A stretch of 64,000 bases of DNA, from contig JADGHX010000005.1 of the NCBI GenBank assembly GCA_019683695.1, positions 1 through 64,000 of the forward strand, written 5' to 3'. The notes under the pieces are model-generated. The model had not been told where the DNA came from and made no database searches. It saw only the letters and a list, made by a program, of their open reading frames with translations. The position numbers and the translations under genes are program-made. Below are positions 11,184 through 64,000 of this stretch, piece after piece; the stretch's first letter is position 1; each line of letters begins with the position of its first letter. Source of the DNA: Steroidobacteraceae bacterium. Lineage in GTDB: Bacteria > Pseudomonadota > Gammaproteobacteria > Steroidobacterales > Steroidobacteraceae.

Positions 11184-15212
<4,029 letters not shown>

Positions 15213-15690: not shown

Positions 15691-15728
15691 GGCGCGCTCC
15701 ACGGGGCTGACCGGCAAAAGCAAACCGC

Positions 15729-16829
15729 ATGCCATCGCCCACGCTGCGTGACAGACTCAACGCTCGTGCACGCCCGCACCGCTGCACACCGACACGGAAC
15801 GGAGGAGCCTTGAGCGCCAATCGCCGTGATGAAGCGGGATCGCTCCCGGCAAGTTATGGCACGCAGGCGTCGGTTCGGCCGGCAGACAGGACGACCGGCA
15901 TCCGGCGCAGGGATCTGCTGGTCGGCGCAATGTGCACCTGCTGTTTGCCGGCGCTGCTGCGCGCAGCCCAACAAACCGGCCCGATGCAGCTCGACGAGGT
16001 GGCACCCGGTGTCTTCTTCCGGCGCGGAGCCGACGAGGACGCCGCCGCGGAGAACGACGACGCCCTCGCCAACATCGGCTTCGTGGTGGGCCGCGAGGCT
16101 GTCGCGGTGTTCGATCCGGGCGGAAGCCTCACGGATGGCGAGCGGCTCCGGGCCGCCATCCGGGACGTCACGCGGCTGCCTGTCCGCTACGTCGTGCTGT
16201 CACACGTTCACCCGGACCACATCTTCGGCGCCGCTGCGTTCGAGCCCGACAAGCCCGCGTTCATCGGACACGAGCATCTGCCCGCCGCCCTCGCCCAGCG
16301 CGGTGAGTACTACCGCAAGCGCCTTGCAGCCGTGCTCGGCGATCATCGCGCCGGGAAGGTGGTGGCGCCCACGCAGCTCGTGCGGGACAGGCTGCAGATC
16401 GACCTGGGTGGCCGCACGCTCGAGCTGACGGCCCATCCGCTCGCCCACACGAACACCGACGTCACAGCGCTCGATCGCAAGGCGGGCCTGCTTCTCGCAT
16501 CCGACCTGGTATTCGTGCGTCGCGTGCCGTCTCTCGATGGGAGCCTCCGTGGCTGGATCAGCGAGCTCGGCGCTCTGCGCGCGCTGCCCGCGCGACGCGT
16601 GGTCCCCGGTCATGGGCCGGTGGCGTTAGACTGGCCTCGAGCCGCAGCCGACCTCGAGCGCTACCTCAACGTTCTGCTGTCGGAGACGCGCGCCGCCATC
16701 GGCAAGGGGCAATCCATCGAGGAGGCCGTCGAAACCGTCGGGCGCTCCGAGCGAGGCAAGTGGGCACTCTTCGACGACTACCACGGTCGGAACGTCACTC
16801 AGGCGTTCAAGGAGCTCGAATGGGAATGA
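15729..16829 (+). CDS. Tat-exported MBL-fold metallohydrolase of quinoprotein relay type
   Basis: 366 residues from ATG 15729. A twin-arginine motif RRRDLLVG starts at about residue 59 and is followed by a short hydrophobic stretch, so it is probably exported folded. The 58 residues before it are unusually long for a leader and the real start may be internal. The zinc motif is H159-V-H161-P-D163-H164 in LSHVHPDHIFG; later come AHPLAHTNTDV, the bridging Asp in LLLASDLVF and VVPGHGPV. These features and its partner gene match the quinoprotein relay system zinc metallohydrolases (SoxH-like), known beside PQQ-dependent alcohol dehydrogenases. Its exact reaction is not established. It overlaps the next gene by 10 bases, so the two are translationally coupled. 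Confidence 0.82.
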   Translation: MPSPTLRDRLNARARPHRCTPTRNGGALSANRRDEAGSLPASYGTQASVRPADRTTGIRRRDLLVGAMCTCCLPALLRAAQQTGPMQLDEVAPGVFFRRGADEDAAAENDDALANIGFVVGREAVAVFDPGGSLTDGERLRAAIRDVTRLPVRYVVLSHVHPDHIFGAAAFEPDKPAFIGHEHLPAALAQRGEYYRKRLAAVLGDHRAGKVVAPTQLVRDRLQIDLGGRTLELTAHPLAHTNTDVTALDRKAGLLLASDLVFVRRVPSLDGSLRGWISELGALRALPARRVVPGHGPVALDWPRAAADLERYLNVLLSETRAAIGKGQSIEEAVETVGRSERGKWALFDDYHGRNVTQAFKELEWE

Positions 16830-57407: not shown

Positions 57408-57731
57408 ATGACGGAGCGTAGTGCCGAACGCGGCGCCGCCCTCGCGCAGGAGTTGCGCGAGGTGGTTTCACAGGCGGAAAACCTTTTGCATGCACTGGGT
57501 GGCGACGGGAATGAGGCGTTGAGCCAGCTCCGCGCGCGCGTTCACGGCGCCGTGGACGCGGCGAAATCCCGCCTTGCGGACCTGGAGCTGCAAGCCACCG
57601 CCGCTGCACAACGCGCCTCGGTGGAAGCGGATGTCTATGCACGCGAGAACCCCTGGACGGTGGTCGGCGCGGGCATGGGTGTAGGCCTGATGCTCGGGGC
57701 GCTCTTCACGCGCAGTCTGCGTCCACGATGA
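57408..57731 (+). CDS. YqjD/ElaB-type DUF883 membrane-anchored protein
   Basis: 107 residues. A coiled-coil N-terminal part (REVVSQAENLLHALGG; ALSQLRARVHGAVDAAKSRLADLE) and a C-terminal segment ENPWTVVGAGMGVGLMLGALF, which matches the DUF883 signature and membrane anchor. E. coli YqjD and ElaB bind ribosomes and the inner membrane in stationary phase under RpoS control. It overlaps the next gene by 4 bases, like the yqjDEK cluster. Confidence 0.85.
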   Translation: MTERSAERGAALAQELREVVSQAENLLHALGGDGNEALSQLRARVHGAVDAAKSRLADLELQATAAAQRASVEADVYARENPWTVVGAGMGVGLMLGALFTRSLRPR

Positions 57732-58111
57732 ACGAGCCCGCTCCTTCCCTCGTCGGCCGCGGCCGGTCACTCCTCGATGAGGTGCTGCGTTTGGCCCAGA
57801 CGCGCCTGGAATTGCTTGCCGCGGAGCTGCAACACGAGAAGCTCGCGCTCATCCGCCAGTGGCAGCTGGCTCTGGCCGCAGCGATCTGCGTAGCCCTCGC
57901 CGGCGTATCGCTTATCCTGTTGCTAGCGCTGGTGCTCCCGGAGGAGTCGCGCATCCGCGCGCTGATCGCGGCGTGCGTCATCTTCCTCGGAGGCGCGATT
58001 GGCTGCAGCCTCGCCTTGCGCACGCGTGCGCAGCGACCGCCGCTGTTCTCCCGCGTGATCCACCAGCTGCGCCTGGATCGAGCCTCTCTCCAGGAGCCGT
58101 CCGGGGAGTGA
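57728..58111 (+). CDS. YqjE-like protein (phage holin family, DUF1469-type)
   Basis: ATG 57728 overlaps the previous stop by 4 bases. 127 residues: a helical start LLDEVLRLAQTRLELLAAELQHEK, then two membrane helices (ALAAAICVALAGVSLILLLAL and LIAACVIFLGGAIGCSLA). This is the YqjE/holin-like layout. The function is unknown; the name 'holin' is only a family label. It belongs to a YqjD-YqjE-YqjK-like operon. Confidence 0.82.
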   Translation: MNEPAPSLVGRGRSLLDEVLRLAQTRLELLAAELQHEKLALIRQWQLALAAAICVALAGVSLILLLALVLPEESRIRALIAACVIFLGGAIGCSLALRTRAQRPPLFSRVIHQLRLDRASLQEPSGE

Positions 58112-58117
58112 TGACGC

Positions 58118-58369
58118 ATGAAACGGAAGCAGGCAGAAAGGCTGGCACGCGAACGCCTGCAGCTTCTCGAAATGGAAGCCGCGCTTCAGCGCGCCTCGCT
58201 TGCAGCCACTCTCGCGAAGCTGGAGAAACGCCGCGCTCTCGCCTGGGGCGGACAGGCCGCGAGCTGGGGCGCGAGACTCCTCGCCACGCCCCGCATACGC
58301 TGGCTGCTCGCCGCGGGCCTCTTCTCGCGGCTGAAACGCAAGCGTCGAGGGGAAAAATGGGCTCACTAG
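58118..58369 (+). CDS. YqjK-like small protein
   Basis: 83 residues, starting MKRKQAERLARERLQLLEME: a charged helix followed by a weak hydrophobic segment (RWLLAAGLFSRLKRKRRGEKW). The position, after YqjD- and YqjE-like genes with a 6-base gap, and the composition fit YqjK. Function unknown; probably inner-membrane associated. Confidence 0.72.
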   Translation: MKRKQAERLARERLQLLEMEAALQRASLAATLAKLEKRRALAWGGQAASWGARLLATPRIRWLLAAGLFSRLKRKRRGEKWAH

Positions 58370-60614: not shown

Positions 60615-62012
60615 TCAGCGCGCGGATTCCGCAGTGTCCTGAGTATCCACCAGCGCTTCCTTGCCTGCGAGCGCATCCTTGCCGTTGTAGGCCTCGAGTC
60701 GATTGTAGAGCGTCTTGAGACTCACGCCGAGAATCTCGGCCGCCTTGCGCTTCACGTGGCCGCAGTAGACCAGCGTGGCCATTGTGACGCGGCGCTCGAC
60801 TTCCTCGAGCGGCGTACCCACCCGGATCGTGATGGTGGTGCCATCGTCGCTCTTCGGTGTGGGCTCGGATACGGCGACGTCACACTCGATGACGTCGTCG
60901 GCCATGATGTACGCGCGCTGCACGTAATTGCGAAGCTCACGCACGTTGCCCGGCCAGTTGTGCTGATACAGGCGCACGAGCGCATCGCGCGAGAACGTCT
61001 TGTTGGTGCCCTCGATGCGATTGAGCTCGTCGAGGAAGAACTGCGCGAGCTGCTCGATATCCGTGCCGCGCTCCCGCAGCGGCGGCAGGCGAATCGGGAA
61101 GACGTTCAGCCGGTGGTAGAGGTCCTCGCGCAGCTTGCCCTCCTGCACCGCCTTTTCGGGCTCGCGGTTGGTGGCCGCGACGACCCGCACATCGCTCGAG
61201 ATGAGCTGGGTGCCGCCCACGCGCATGAACGTGCCCGTCTCGAGCACGCGCAGGAGCTTCACCTGCAGCTCCATCGGCATCTCCGTGATCTCGTCCAGGA
61301 AGATCGTGCCGCCGTTCGCGCGCTCGAAGAAGCCCTTGTGCTGGCGATCCGCCCCGGTGAAGCTGCCGCGCTCGTGGCCGAAGAGCTCGCTCTCGATGAG
61401 CTGCGGTGCGACCGCGCCGCAGTTGAGCGGCAGGAACGGGGCATCGCGCCGCCGGCTGAGCTCGTGGATGGTCTGCGCGGCGAGCTCCTTGCCCGTGCCG
61501 CTCTCGCCAATGAGCAGAGCCGTCGCGGACGTGGGCGCCACGCGGCTGATCTGATCGTAGAGCACCTGCATGCGTTGCGAGCTGCCGAGAATCTTTCCGA
61601 AGCGGCCGAGCTTGCGCAGCGCCTCCCGCAGCTCACCGATCTCCTGCTGGAGCGCGGACGTCTTCTTCGCGTGACGCAGCACGGCCTGCACACGTTCGAG
61701 GTCCGCCGGCTTCACGAGGTAGTCGCTGGCGCCGGCGCGCAGCGCCGCCACCGCACTGTCCACCGTGGCGTGGCCCGTGACGATGATCACCTCCGTGGCG
61801 TCCGGTTTTTCGAGCTCGGAGACGAGCTCGATGCCCTCACCATCGGGCAGCCGCAGATCCGTCAGCAGAACGTCCGGCCGCTGGCGTCCGAGCTCGATGC
61901 GCGCCTCGCGCAGCGACTGCGCGCGCGCCACCGTGAAGCCTTCCATGCGCGCCACTTCCTGCAGCCATTCCACGACGTCCGGATCGTCATCGACAATCAA
62001 TGCGTGTGCCAT
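60615..62012 (-). CDS. NtrC-family sigma-54-dependent response regulator
   Basis: ATG 62012 (MAHALIVDDDPDVVEW) has GAGG five bases upstream; a GTG at 62027 is less likely. 465 residues. The receiver has phospho-Asp in VLLTDLRLPDGEG. The AAA+ domain has Walker A GESGTGKE, the sigma-54 contact loop GSFTGA (Ser for the usual Ala), Walker B GGTIFLDEITEM and NWPGNVRELRNYVQRAY. The Fis-type DNA-binding helix is at the end (HVKRKAAEILGVSLKTLYNRLEAY). It should activate sigma-54 promoters when phosphorylated. No cognate kinase is directly beside it, and a sigma-54-type promoter lies about 1 kb away at 63039. Confidence 0.94.
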   Translation of the reverse strand: MAHALIVDDDPDVVEWLQEVARMEGFTVARAQSLREARIELGRQRPDVLLTDLRLPDGEGIELVSELEKPDATEVIIVTGHATVDSAVAALRAGASDYLVKPADLERVQAVLRHAKKTSALQQEIGELREALRKLGRFGKILGSSQRMQVLYDQISRVAPTSATALLIGESGTGKELAAQTIHELSRRRDAPFLPLNCGAVAPQLIESELFGHERGSFTGADRQHKGFFERANGGTIFLDEITEMPMELQVKLLRVLETGTFMRVGGTQLISSDVRVVAATNREPEKAVQEGKLREDLYHRLNVFPIRLPPLRERGTDIEQLAQFFLDELNRIEGTNKTFSRDALVRLYQHNWPGNVRELRNYVQRAYIMADDVIECDVAVSEPTPKSDDGTTITIRVGTPLEEVERRVTMATLVYCGHVKRKAAEILGVSLKTLYNRLEAYNGKDALAGKEALVDTQDTAESAR

Positions 62013-62101
62013 TGCATCCTCGTCCACGTACTTTTTTCGGGGCTACTCTACTGCCGTTCCGGCACATCACCAATGTCGTCCTGCCCCGACAGGAACGCGT
62101 G

Positions 62102-62344
62102 ATGCTCGATGGCTCGCCCGATGCGCAGGCGATAGCCGGACGGTGCGGGATGAACTGGAAAATCGGACTTCTCTCGGTCGGTGTGCTGGCTCTGGGCGCC
62201 GCGCTCGACCGCCGCAGACGGCAGGAGCGACAGAGGCTACCACGCCCGGAGATCGAACGTTGGGAAGAAGAAGGCGGCGCGGTGCCGACGAGCGAGGACC
62301 GGACGGCCGCGCAGACGGCGACGGTTCCGCCCTCCACATCCTGA
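62102..62344 (+). CDS. Small protein with an N-terminal membrane helix, 80 residues
   Basis: ATG 62102 is six bases after AGGAA; an internal ATG at 62150 (MNWKIGLLSVGVLALGAALD) is an alternative that starts right at the helix. One hydrophobic segment is followed by a strongly charged stretch (DRRRRQERQRLPRPEIERWEEEGG) and a Thr/Ser-rich end. I recognise no family. It is divergent from the NtrC-type regulator gene, with 89 bases between starts, and precedes a long gene-free stretch. Confidence 0.6.
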   Translation: MLDGSPDAQAIAGRCGMNWKIGLLSVGVLALGAALDRRRRQERQRLPRPEIERWEEEGGAVPTSEDRTAAQTATVPPSTS

Positions 62345-62578
62345 GCTCGACGGCCATCCCGATCGGTCATGGTGTCGTCCTGCTGTGCGCTCTGCGCAAC
62401 GCCTGGGACCGTGCTCGCCTGCCTTCGTTGCGCCATGCCCACGCTCGGCGGGTAAAAAGGAAACGCTCCGCCTCTGCCAGGGTTCTCAGCGCGTACTTTT
62501 TGCACCGGCTGTACCTTTTACACGCTTTGCGCCCCGTGAAACCCGCCTGGGCACGGGCTCGGCGGCGCACGCCACCGC

Positions 62579-62603
62579 GTGTGACCGATTGATCGGGTCA
62601 CAC
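62579..62603. repeat. Dyad symmetry, possible protein-binding site
   Basis: GTGTGACC (62579-62586) and GGTCACAC (62596-62603) pair perfectly around a 9-base loop, GATTGATCG. It resembles a dimeric regulator site or a structured RNA stem. It lies 436 bases before the sigma-54 promoter. No function can be assigned. Confidence 0.35.
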
Positions 62604-62898
62604 CCGGGAGGGACAACGCTTGATGCGCGCATTCGGGCCCTCTCGTTTTTCAGGGACGCGCTCGCGCCCTGATCGGCCACTTCGGCACGTGTGGAGGGCT
62701 CTCGCCCCGCCTCCACGGCACCTCATTCGCGCGCCGCTGCCTTCGCGATGTGGCGGCGCTCCCCGGTGCCCGCGTTCATCGCCGGCGCGCCGGGTGCGCG
62801 CTGGCGTGAAAACAAGGGCTTGCACGTCCTCCTGCGAATCGGGCCCTGCGCCCGGATGCGGGCGCGGCAGCGACGGCGCGCCTCGCGCGCGATCGTCA

Positions 62899-62914
62899 CG
62901 GACACGGCTGTCCG
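62899..62914. promoter_or_regulatory. Candidate enhancer site (dyad) upstream of the sigma-54 promoter
   Basis: CGGACA-N4-TGTCCG (62899-62914) is a perfect 6+6 dyad centred about 158 bases before the inferred start site, a usual distance for NtrC-type activator sites. It is only one dyad in GC-rich DNA, so chance is possible. The activator encoded at 60615-62012 is the natural candidate. Confidence 0.3.
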
Positions 62915-63038
62915 CATCGGGCGTGCCCCCCCGCGCACGCGACGGCCCGCTTTCAGGCGTCGCGCCGCGAAGTCCGGACGAGCGGGAATTTCTGCCGCGA
63001 GCAAGCTCGAGCATGAAGCGTGCCTGAGCCGTTCGCCG

Positions 63039-63054
63039 TGGCATGGGGGTTGCA
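63039..63054 (+). promoter_or_regulatory. Sigma-54 (RpoN) type promoter
   Basis: TGGCATGGGGGTTGCA matches the consensus TGGCACG-N4-TTGCA at every fixed position except T for C at the sixth base. The invariant GG (63040-63041) and GC (63052-63053) are 10 bases apart as required. It faces the plus strand; transcription would start near 63065. No ORF follows. Confidence 0.7.
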
Positions 63055-63064
63055 TAGATCAGAG

Positions 63065-63162
63065 CGAATTCGCTTCGACGCGGCTCTTTCGAAGACAGCG
63101 GCGAGGCTTACCGAAGACCCCCCGTTTGGCGGGCTGTGGTGCGACCAGCCCGCTATTTTTTT
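63065..63162 (+). ncRNA. Candidate sigma-54-dependent small RNA, about 98 nt
   Basis: The start is inferred 12 bases after the GC element of the promoter; the end is the T-tract of the terminator. The 5' end lies in a perfect palindrome AGCGAATTCGCT (63063-63074). A stem CTTCGA (63073-63078) with TCGAAG (63089-63094) follows, then a C-rich stretch (GACCCCCCG near 63115-63124) that could pair with Shine-Dalgarno sequences, then the terminator hairpin. There is no ATG in the interval. Sequence and boundaries are read directly; the existence of the RNA is inference. Confidence 0.55.
63129..63162 (+). terminator. Intrinsic terminator with seven-T tract
   Basis: GCGGGCT (63129-63135) pairs with AGCCCGC (63147-63153); an inner GGT/ACC pair extends it with a 2-base bulge and loop GCG. 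It is followed by TATTTTTTT (T7 at 63156-63162). It is oriented for the plus strand, although both flanking protein genes end near it in other ways, so it terminates something transcribed inside the gap. Confidence 0.8.
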
Positions 63163-63192
63163 GCCTGCCTTTTGCACCTGTTTGCGCGCGAA

Positions 63193-64000
63193 TCAGCGCG
63201 CGTCCGCAAGCCTGCGGATGATGGGCACGAACGAATCGAAGTCGACCGGCTTGGGCACATGCAGATCGAAGCCCGCATCGATCGCCGCTTCCACATCAGC
63301 TCGTGAGGCGTAACCGGTGAGTGCAATCGCTACCATGCGATCCCCCAAATGCATGCGGCGGAGCTTGCGAACGAGCGAGTACCCGTCCTCTTCCGGCATG
63401 CCGATATCGGTGACGAGCACGTCGAAGCGCGCCTGAGGGTCCCGCAGATAATCCAGCGCCGCGCGAGCCGAATCGCCGATGGTCACGTGCGCGCCCTCGA
63501 GGCGCAGCGTTTCCGCCACGACCGCTCTCGCGTCCGGCTCGTCGTCCACGACGAGTATGGACAGACCCGCGAGCTGCTCGGCGCGAGCGCAGCCCAGTCG
63601 TGGCAGGGTGCCATCACCCTCGAGCGCATGCGCGGGCCCGGCCGGAAGCGTGACCACGAACATCGATCCCTGGCCCAGGCCCGGGCTGCTGGCGGAGACC
63701 GTTCCGCCGTGAAGCGCGACGATCTCGCGCACGAGCGTGAGGCCGAGCCCCAGCCCACCGGCGCCACGCGTCGTGGAGCTGTCGCCCTGGCGGAAGCGAT
63801 CGAAGATGTGCGGCAGCAGCTCTGGAGAGATGCCCTGCCCCGTGTCGGCGACGCTGAGCACGCTGCGATCGGCGAACTCGCGCAGCTGCACCGTGATGCG
63901 CCCGCCCGCCGGCGTGAACTTCATGGCATTGGAAAGCAGGTTCGCCACCACCTGGTTCAGGCGGTCCGGATCGGCGGACAGGCAGGCGCGCTGCGGCGGC
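63193..64000 (-). CDS. Hybrid sensor histidine kinase, 3' part (5' end outside window)
   Basis: The frame is open to the last base of the window, so the N-terminus is missing. The visible part holds HATPase_c with DPDRLNQVVANLLSNAMKFTP, VADTGQGISPELLPHIFDRF and GGLGLGLTLVREIVALHGG, then a C-terminal receiver: LSILVVDDEPDARAVVAETLRLEG, phospho-Asp in VLVTDIGMPEEDG, Thr in IALTGYASRAD and Lys in HVPKPVDFDSF. This is the HisKA-HATPase-REC layout common in proteins with many PAS or GAF domains. It may receive phosphate itself or signal to a separate regulator. No neighbour on the far side is visible. Confidence 0.9.
   Translation of the reverse strand, partial: PPQRACLSADPDRLNQVVANLLSNAMKFTPAGGRITVQLREFADRSVLSVADTGQGISPELLPHIFDRFRQGDSSTTRGAGGLGLGLTLVREIVALHGGTVSASSPGLGQGSMFVVTLPAGPAHALEGDGTLPRLGCARAEQLAGLSILVVDDEPDARAVVAETLRLEGAHVTIGDSARAALDYLRDPQARFDVLVTDIGMPEEDGYSLVRKLRRMHLGDRMVAIALTGYASRADVEAAIDAGFDLHVPKPVDFDSFVPIIRRLADAR

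Follow-up and report, generated by a model that had tools for sequence, protein, structure and literature searches.

A probable sigma-54-dependent small-RNA gene with a near-invariant core beside an NtrC-type regulator in Steroidobacteraceae

Positions 63039-63162 of the DNA analysed here (the window, by which we mean the whole 64,000-nucleotide stretch) probably constitute a previously undescribed small-RNA gene. We observed a conserved unit of promoter, core and terminator that is near-invariant and strictly tied to the gene of an NtrC-type regulator, together with a palindrome that is unique in the genome. On this basis we consider it likely that the unit is a trans-acting small-RNA (sRNA) gene whose RNA is the main output of a dedicated module combining two-component signalling with sigma-54. 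The literature searched held no small-RNA work on Steroidobacteraceae, and the RNA had no match in Rfam at the gathering threshold or at E<=5. If the reading is true, this is a new sRNA family whose sequence constraint is very strict relative to its surroundings and which was found from a promoter motif alone.

Promoter, predicted RNA and terminator

The elements of the locus are as follows.

63010-63025, minus strand: divergent sigma-54-like box AGGCACGCTTCATGCT, agreeing with 10 of 12 consensus positions
63039-63054, plus strand: sigma-54 (-24/-12) promoter box TGGCATGGGGGTTGCA, an exact consensus match
63065-63162, plus strand: predicted small RNA in its long form, about 98 nt, with its start taken from the box and its end from the T7 tail
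63072-63107, plus strand: predicted 5' hairpin, variable in sequence and conserved in position in the long forms
63116-63154, plus strand: 39-nt ultraconserved core GACCCCCCGTTTGGCGGGCTGTGGTGCGACCAGCCCGCT, 99.4% mean pairwise identity in 16 genomes
63118-63123, plus strand: C6 run, the proposed seed, kept in the diverged copy of genome G004 and predicted mostly single-stranded
63127-63162, plus strand: Rho-independent terminator, a hairpin with T7, stem and T-run kept in all orthologues

The initial annotation had proposed a sigma-54 box with GG-N10-GC spacing, and TGGCATGGGGGTTGCA indeed fits TGGCAYG-N4-TTGCW without a mismatch and with the correct spacing. The window has two exact boxes of this kind, where dinucleotide shuffles gave 0.02 on average. 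The predicted sRNA start, at about 63065, lies 12 nt past the GC of the box, and no sigma-70-like promoter was found in the last 2 kb of the window. The divergent box AGGCACGCTTCATGCT has counterparts in relatives, where such boxes precede DUF2383 genes; the window locus has no DUF2383 gene. Elsewhere in the window, the second exact box, TGGCATGCGGTTTGCT (15719-15734, minus strand), stands about 28 bases before an ATG at about 15690 on the minus strand, and the ORF behind it precedes the gene of a large hybrid kinase with multiple PAS domains (11184-15212, minus strand).

At the other end of the unit, the proposed hairpin with T7 on the plus strand proved to be real: GCGGGCUG...CAGCCCGC makes a GC-rich stem at 63127-63155, followed by T7 at 63156-63162. 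The hairpin was absent from the list of a simple terminator scan, we think because of the loop-length limit of that scan. Since the T-run is on the plus side only, the convergent kinase gene does not have this hairpin as its terminator. Between promoter and terminator, the suggested C-rich unpaired stretch corresponds to the C6 run, which belongs to the almost invariant core and is predicted to be mostly unpaired in most, not all, structures (0.5-0.86, ensemble). The size of the surrounding gap needs a qualification. The 848 bases originally given hold only if a doubtful 64-aa ORF (62150-62344) counts as a gene; on a GC3-based map the empty stretch is 1166 bases (62027-63193). The conserved terminator and a 17-genome comparison without a sign of coding constraint suggest that the unit is non-coding, with a predicted transcript.

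The folding energy of the whole RNA was ordinary for the window copy (z = -1.07). Therefore, the case rests on conservation and comparison, not on energy. Such an unremarkable energy would also fit a chance pairing of a sigma-54-like box with an unrelated terminator. However, the unit is conserved in 17 genomes and only 0.02 boxes were expected, so that chance is already refuted by the comparative data and retains a practically negligible probability.

Conservation, distribution and the two forms of the RNA

A covariance search of related genomes had been suggested at the outset. We built the model from the 3' part of the RNA and ran it over 217 Steroidobacteraceae genomes. It returned strong copies (62-88 bits) in 16 of them, a single one per genome; a seventeenth genome, G004, carried a diverged 44-nt unit in the same place, and the other 200 had no strong copy. 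An order-level search of 396 genomes gave no convincing copy outside Steroidobacteraceae. Among about 85,000 named species genomes, the exact 20-mer ACCCCCCGTTTGGCGGGCTG was present only in 15 metagenome-assembled genomes; their labels read Proteobacteria, Gammaproteobacteria or, once, Steroidobacteraceae. From these searches we would place the window itself in Steroidobacteraceae.

The core GACCCCCCGTTTGGCGGGCTGTGGTGCGACCAGCCCGCT had the same sequence in 14 genomes of the 16, with a single-base difference in each of the remaining two; mean identity at fourfold-degenerate sites was 54% for ntrC, 50% for rpoN2 and 48% for the kinase gene. Conservation of the GG-N10-GC box and the terminator had been named in advance as a test of the reading, and both were present in all 16 strong orthologues and in diverged G004, with a sigma-54 box upstream of the core at 17 of 17 loci. 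A DNA search of 98 related genomes found four relatives in which identity of 94-98% was confined to 50-66 bases within the RNA; each had an upstream sigma-54 box, with a different stretch between box and core. In G004, the C6 run persists together with the GGCGGGCTG...CAGCCCGCT stem, and the loop has been replaced. Thus, the C6 run and the stem are the most durable parts.

Several further hits were rejected. The weaker covariance hits L048, L050, L052, L055, L049, L054, L073 and L074 had no correctly placed sigma-54 box and are not members, and pattern hits in G140 and G146 were sigma-54-like boxes preceding ORFs, not sRNAs. The first four of these loci (genomes G217, G215, G057 and G216; genus g24) share a separate sRNA-like unit, in which a sigma-70-like promoter precedes a GAGTGACCCCC(C)...GGCGGGC hairpin and a T-rich tail. 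The unit points away from a neighbouring MerR-type gene and is possibly another C-rich sRNA family.

The RNA came in two forms. Ten genomes, including that of the window, have the long form, with the box 78-132 bases upstream of the core. In six others the distance from the start of the box to the C-run is 28 bases, giving a predicted RNA of 48-50 nt; in G004 it is 25-26 bases and the predicted RNA is 44 nt. All of these short predicted RNAs begin at AGACCCCCC or ACCCCCC. If true, the short form, whose promoter directly adjoins the core, is a natural deletion that delimits the minimal functional RNA. It also bears on whether the conserved stretch encodes a short peptide in the frame ...TEDPPFGGLWCDQPA..., which is open in several orthologues. 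The RNA of the short form starts at the core, and therefore leaves no room for a start codon; the 39 nt are almost free of changes, synonymous ones included; and the diverged copy in G004 lacks that sequence. A peptide is thus extremely unlikely.

A leader or attenuator of a downstream gene, in place of a free RNA, was considered for the nine relatives that have an ORF of about 97 aa downstream on the same strand (L104, L105, L107, L108 and L114-L118, the match in L107 being partial). The predicted product ends in GMPSTWQSGI and has no Pfam match. On the other hand, the ORF was not found in the window or at seven further loci, all of which have a converging gene next, and the core is unchanged without it in all but G004, which makes this explanation very unlikely.

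In the long forms, the 5' hairpin ends directly before CCGAAGACC at all ten loci; the short forms have none. Its mean z was -2.76 over the ten loci, compared with -0.41 in upstream control segments, and the window copy was weaker (z -1.09). Because the ten-sequence alignment of this variable hairpin was structurally unreliable, a three-sequence count was used instead. Between G042 and G058, two stem pairs changed from C-G to U-A, a small count that 64 of 500 shuffles also reached. We read these double changes as a direct, if slight, indication of an RNA stem. They are relevant to the idea that the element acts as DNA, for instance as a protein-binding or recombination site, which its partly palindromic sequence, its very high conservation and its single copy per genome would suit. 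Nevertheless, the constant relation to the sigma-54 box, the T-run on one side only and the common upstream hairpin with its double changes point to RNA, and we hold a DNA element to be highly improbable.

Linkage to a signalling locus and the candidate enhancer

The likely trans-acting sRNA gene stands among genes of signal transduction, with two putative control sites upstream.

60615-62027, minus strand: NtrC-type response regulator (receiver, sigma-54 interaction and Fis-type HTH domains; PF00072, PF00158, PF02954)
62491-62505, no strand assigned: degenerate companion site GCGTACTTTTTGCAC, in tandem, 18 bp upstream of CTGTACCTTTTACA
62509-62522, no strand assigned: palindrome CTGTACCTTTTACA, CTGTAN(3-4)TTTACA, proposed enhancer for the NtrC-type activator
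63193-64000, continuing to about 65025 of the contig, minus strand: hybrid histidine kinase (PAS-HisKA-HATPase-receiver, by Pfam), convergent
about 64978-66378 on contig C255 of G000, just past the end of the window: second rpoN, beside the hybrid kinase

The presence of an NtrC-family gene near the candidate, as first annotated, was borne out by the three Pfam domains, and the suggested link between the two was strengthened by the comparison. Of the 217 genomes, precisely the 17 with the sRNA also had an orthologue of the regulator (83-92% identity), and the other family genomes had none at E<=1e-150. As sRNA and regulator are physically linked, this co-occurrence is partly co-inheritance. 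The next-best NtrC homologue among the 396 genomes of the order, in G244 (56% identity), was set aside, with no recognisable sRNA adjoining it.

The regulator comes first at the locus and is often followed by genes for an NhaP-type antiporter and a DUF2383 protein; then come sRNA, hybrid kinase and rpoN. In relatives, the hybrid kinase adjoins the sRNA at every locus whose contig is long enough to show it. Besides the rpoN at the sRNA locus, the window genome carries a second copy on contig C276, and it has a single hfq. The sRNA is probably the main output of this adjacent signalling system. Further away in the window, at 57408-58369 (plus strand), genes for a DUF883 protein, a holin-X-like membrane protein and a small basic protein lie in a row, next to genes for two response regulators and a histidine kinase; this neighbourhood may be related to the envelope or to stress.

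The pattern CTGTAN(3-4)TTTACA occurs once in the 5.18-Mb genome of the window, at the sRNA locus, 517 bp upstream of the box. It was also found at the sRNA locus of several relatives, and like sites lie upstream in most; in some relatives the palindrome is weak or absent. In several relatives, companion sites resembling GCAC-TTTT-CA are spaced as in the window. Perfect palindromes found elsewhere in G101, G119, G135 and G004 were discarded, having no sigma-54 box nearby. Judging from proximity and co-occurrence, CTGTACCTTTTACA is a candidate enhancer of the NtrC-type regulator.

Candidate target, proposed mechanism and relation to known sRNAs

We searched the 17 genomes for targets with CCAAACGGGGGGTCT, allowing at most one mismatch, and obtained four sites besides the sRNA itself. 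One of them, in G101, offers 14 contiguous bases complementary to the sRNA at the ribosome-binding site of ctpA, the gene of an S41 C-terminal processing protease. Because of this complementarity ctpA was chosen as a candidate, and the choice was then tested on the ctpA orthologues of the remaining 16 genomes. G6 stood just before the ctpA start codon in 11 of the 17 sRNA-bearing genomes (counting G101) and G5 in two (the window species and G021), counts that are not independent trials, as the genomes are related. Only GGGG was present in G025, G042 and G058, where the core is kept, with UCU next to it in two of the three. The ctpA of G004 has no long G-run, and the sRNA of that genome is diverged as well. 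For comparison, G6 appeared in 0.9% of 320 start-codon windows from the 17 loci, and G5 or longer at none of the 110 starts in the nine largest neighbouring gene families. The DUF2383 family had a G-run at two of nine starts, but those ORF calls overlap the sRNA itself.

The mean duplex energy with the sRNA was -21 kcal/mol for ctpA against a comparison value of -9.3 kcal/mol. In the window species the pairing covers only about 7 bp, at -18.1 kcal/mol, an energy no better than that of about 4 of the 170 start windows scored in the window. The G-rich ctpA leader could also be simply a ribosome-binding site. Picked by complementarity, ctpA is at present the best candidate target of the sRNA. The remaining complementary sites lie in an ABC substrate-binding protein gene of G143 (at about codons 12-17), in an intergenic position of G000, and in G021 (L159, position 1501), where a sigma-54-like box TGGCACGACACTTGCC starts about 30 bases earlier; the last is possibly a co-regulated transcript.

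A real, sigma-54-dependent RNA might instead bind a protein, as a sponge or cofactor, and leave mRNAs alone. This would account for the invariant terminator loop, and for stem, loop and linker being alike conserved beyond the needs of a seed. CrcZ (under CbrB) and GlmY/GlmZ are sigma-54-dependent sRNAs under NtrC-type activators and work by binding Hfq or RapZ, and sRNAs that titrate CsrA/RsmA carry repeated GGA in hairpin loops. By contrast, the 39-nt core has no GGA and no CrcZ-like repeats, nor any Rfam match; G004 lost the loop yet kept the C6 run and the stem; and most genomes have a conserved candidate target region complementary to the RNA. We therefore regard protein binding as unlikely.

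For the preferred reading, an sRNA acting on mRNAs, we propose the following sequence of events. The hybrid kinase would sense a signal, possibly an envelope-related one, and bring about phosphorylation of the NtrC-type regulator. The regulator would bind CTGTAN(3-4)TTTACA and activate sigma-54 RNA polymerase at 63039-63054, as sequence and co-occurrence suggest, with sigma-54 perhaps supplied by the locus's own RpoN copy, given its position. The conserved signals predict that an RNA of about 98 nt is made and stops at the terminator. Its C6 seed may then pair with G-rich ribosome-binding sites and block translation, with ctpA as the best candidate. CtpA in Pseudomonas aeruginosa degrades cell-wall hydrolases (PMC6050968), from which it would follow that repression of ctpA alters envelope turnover. 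The narrowest version, in which kinase, NtrC-type activator and private sigma-54 form a single-output island serving mainly one C-run sRNA that silences ctpA and so alters hydrolase turnover, is tentative, and we would not bet on it in full. With a unique enhancer and a named candidate target, the circuit is directly testable with reporters.

Beside the systems above, two known sRNAs invite comparison. The sX13 RNA of Xanthomonas acts through C-rich loops on G-rich motifs near translation starts (PMC3771888). The candidate resembles it in having an unpaired C-rich motif in a GC-rich gammaproteobacterium, where pairing to G-rich starts is presumed. However, sX13 presents its motifs in three hairpin loops. 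The RNA described here has just one C6 run, placed either in a linker or at the 5' end; its core is far shorter, and its promoter is of the sigma-54 type. The Qrr sRNAs of Vibrio are sigma-54-dependent. They lie downstream of a two-component relay and are activated by LuxO, an NtrC-type enhancer-binding protein, which uses palindromic sites upstream of them (PMC10162802). The likeness lies in the control logic, which for our locus would likewise combine a sigma-54-dependent sRNA, an NtrC-type activator and an upstream palindrome. There is no sequence relation: Rfam, which includes Qrr, gave no match even at E<=5, and the LuxO palindrome TTGCAWWWTGCAA is unlike the one found here. Moreover, our sRNA has a second rpoN and a hybrid kinase at its locus, and a C-run as its proposed seed. 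By its architecture and its lack of an Rfam match, the sRNA is a member of neither Qrr nor sX13. If the proposed circuit is true, its regulator would be a further NtrC-type protein devoted chiefly to an sRNA, beside LuxO-Qrr.
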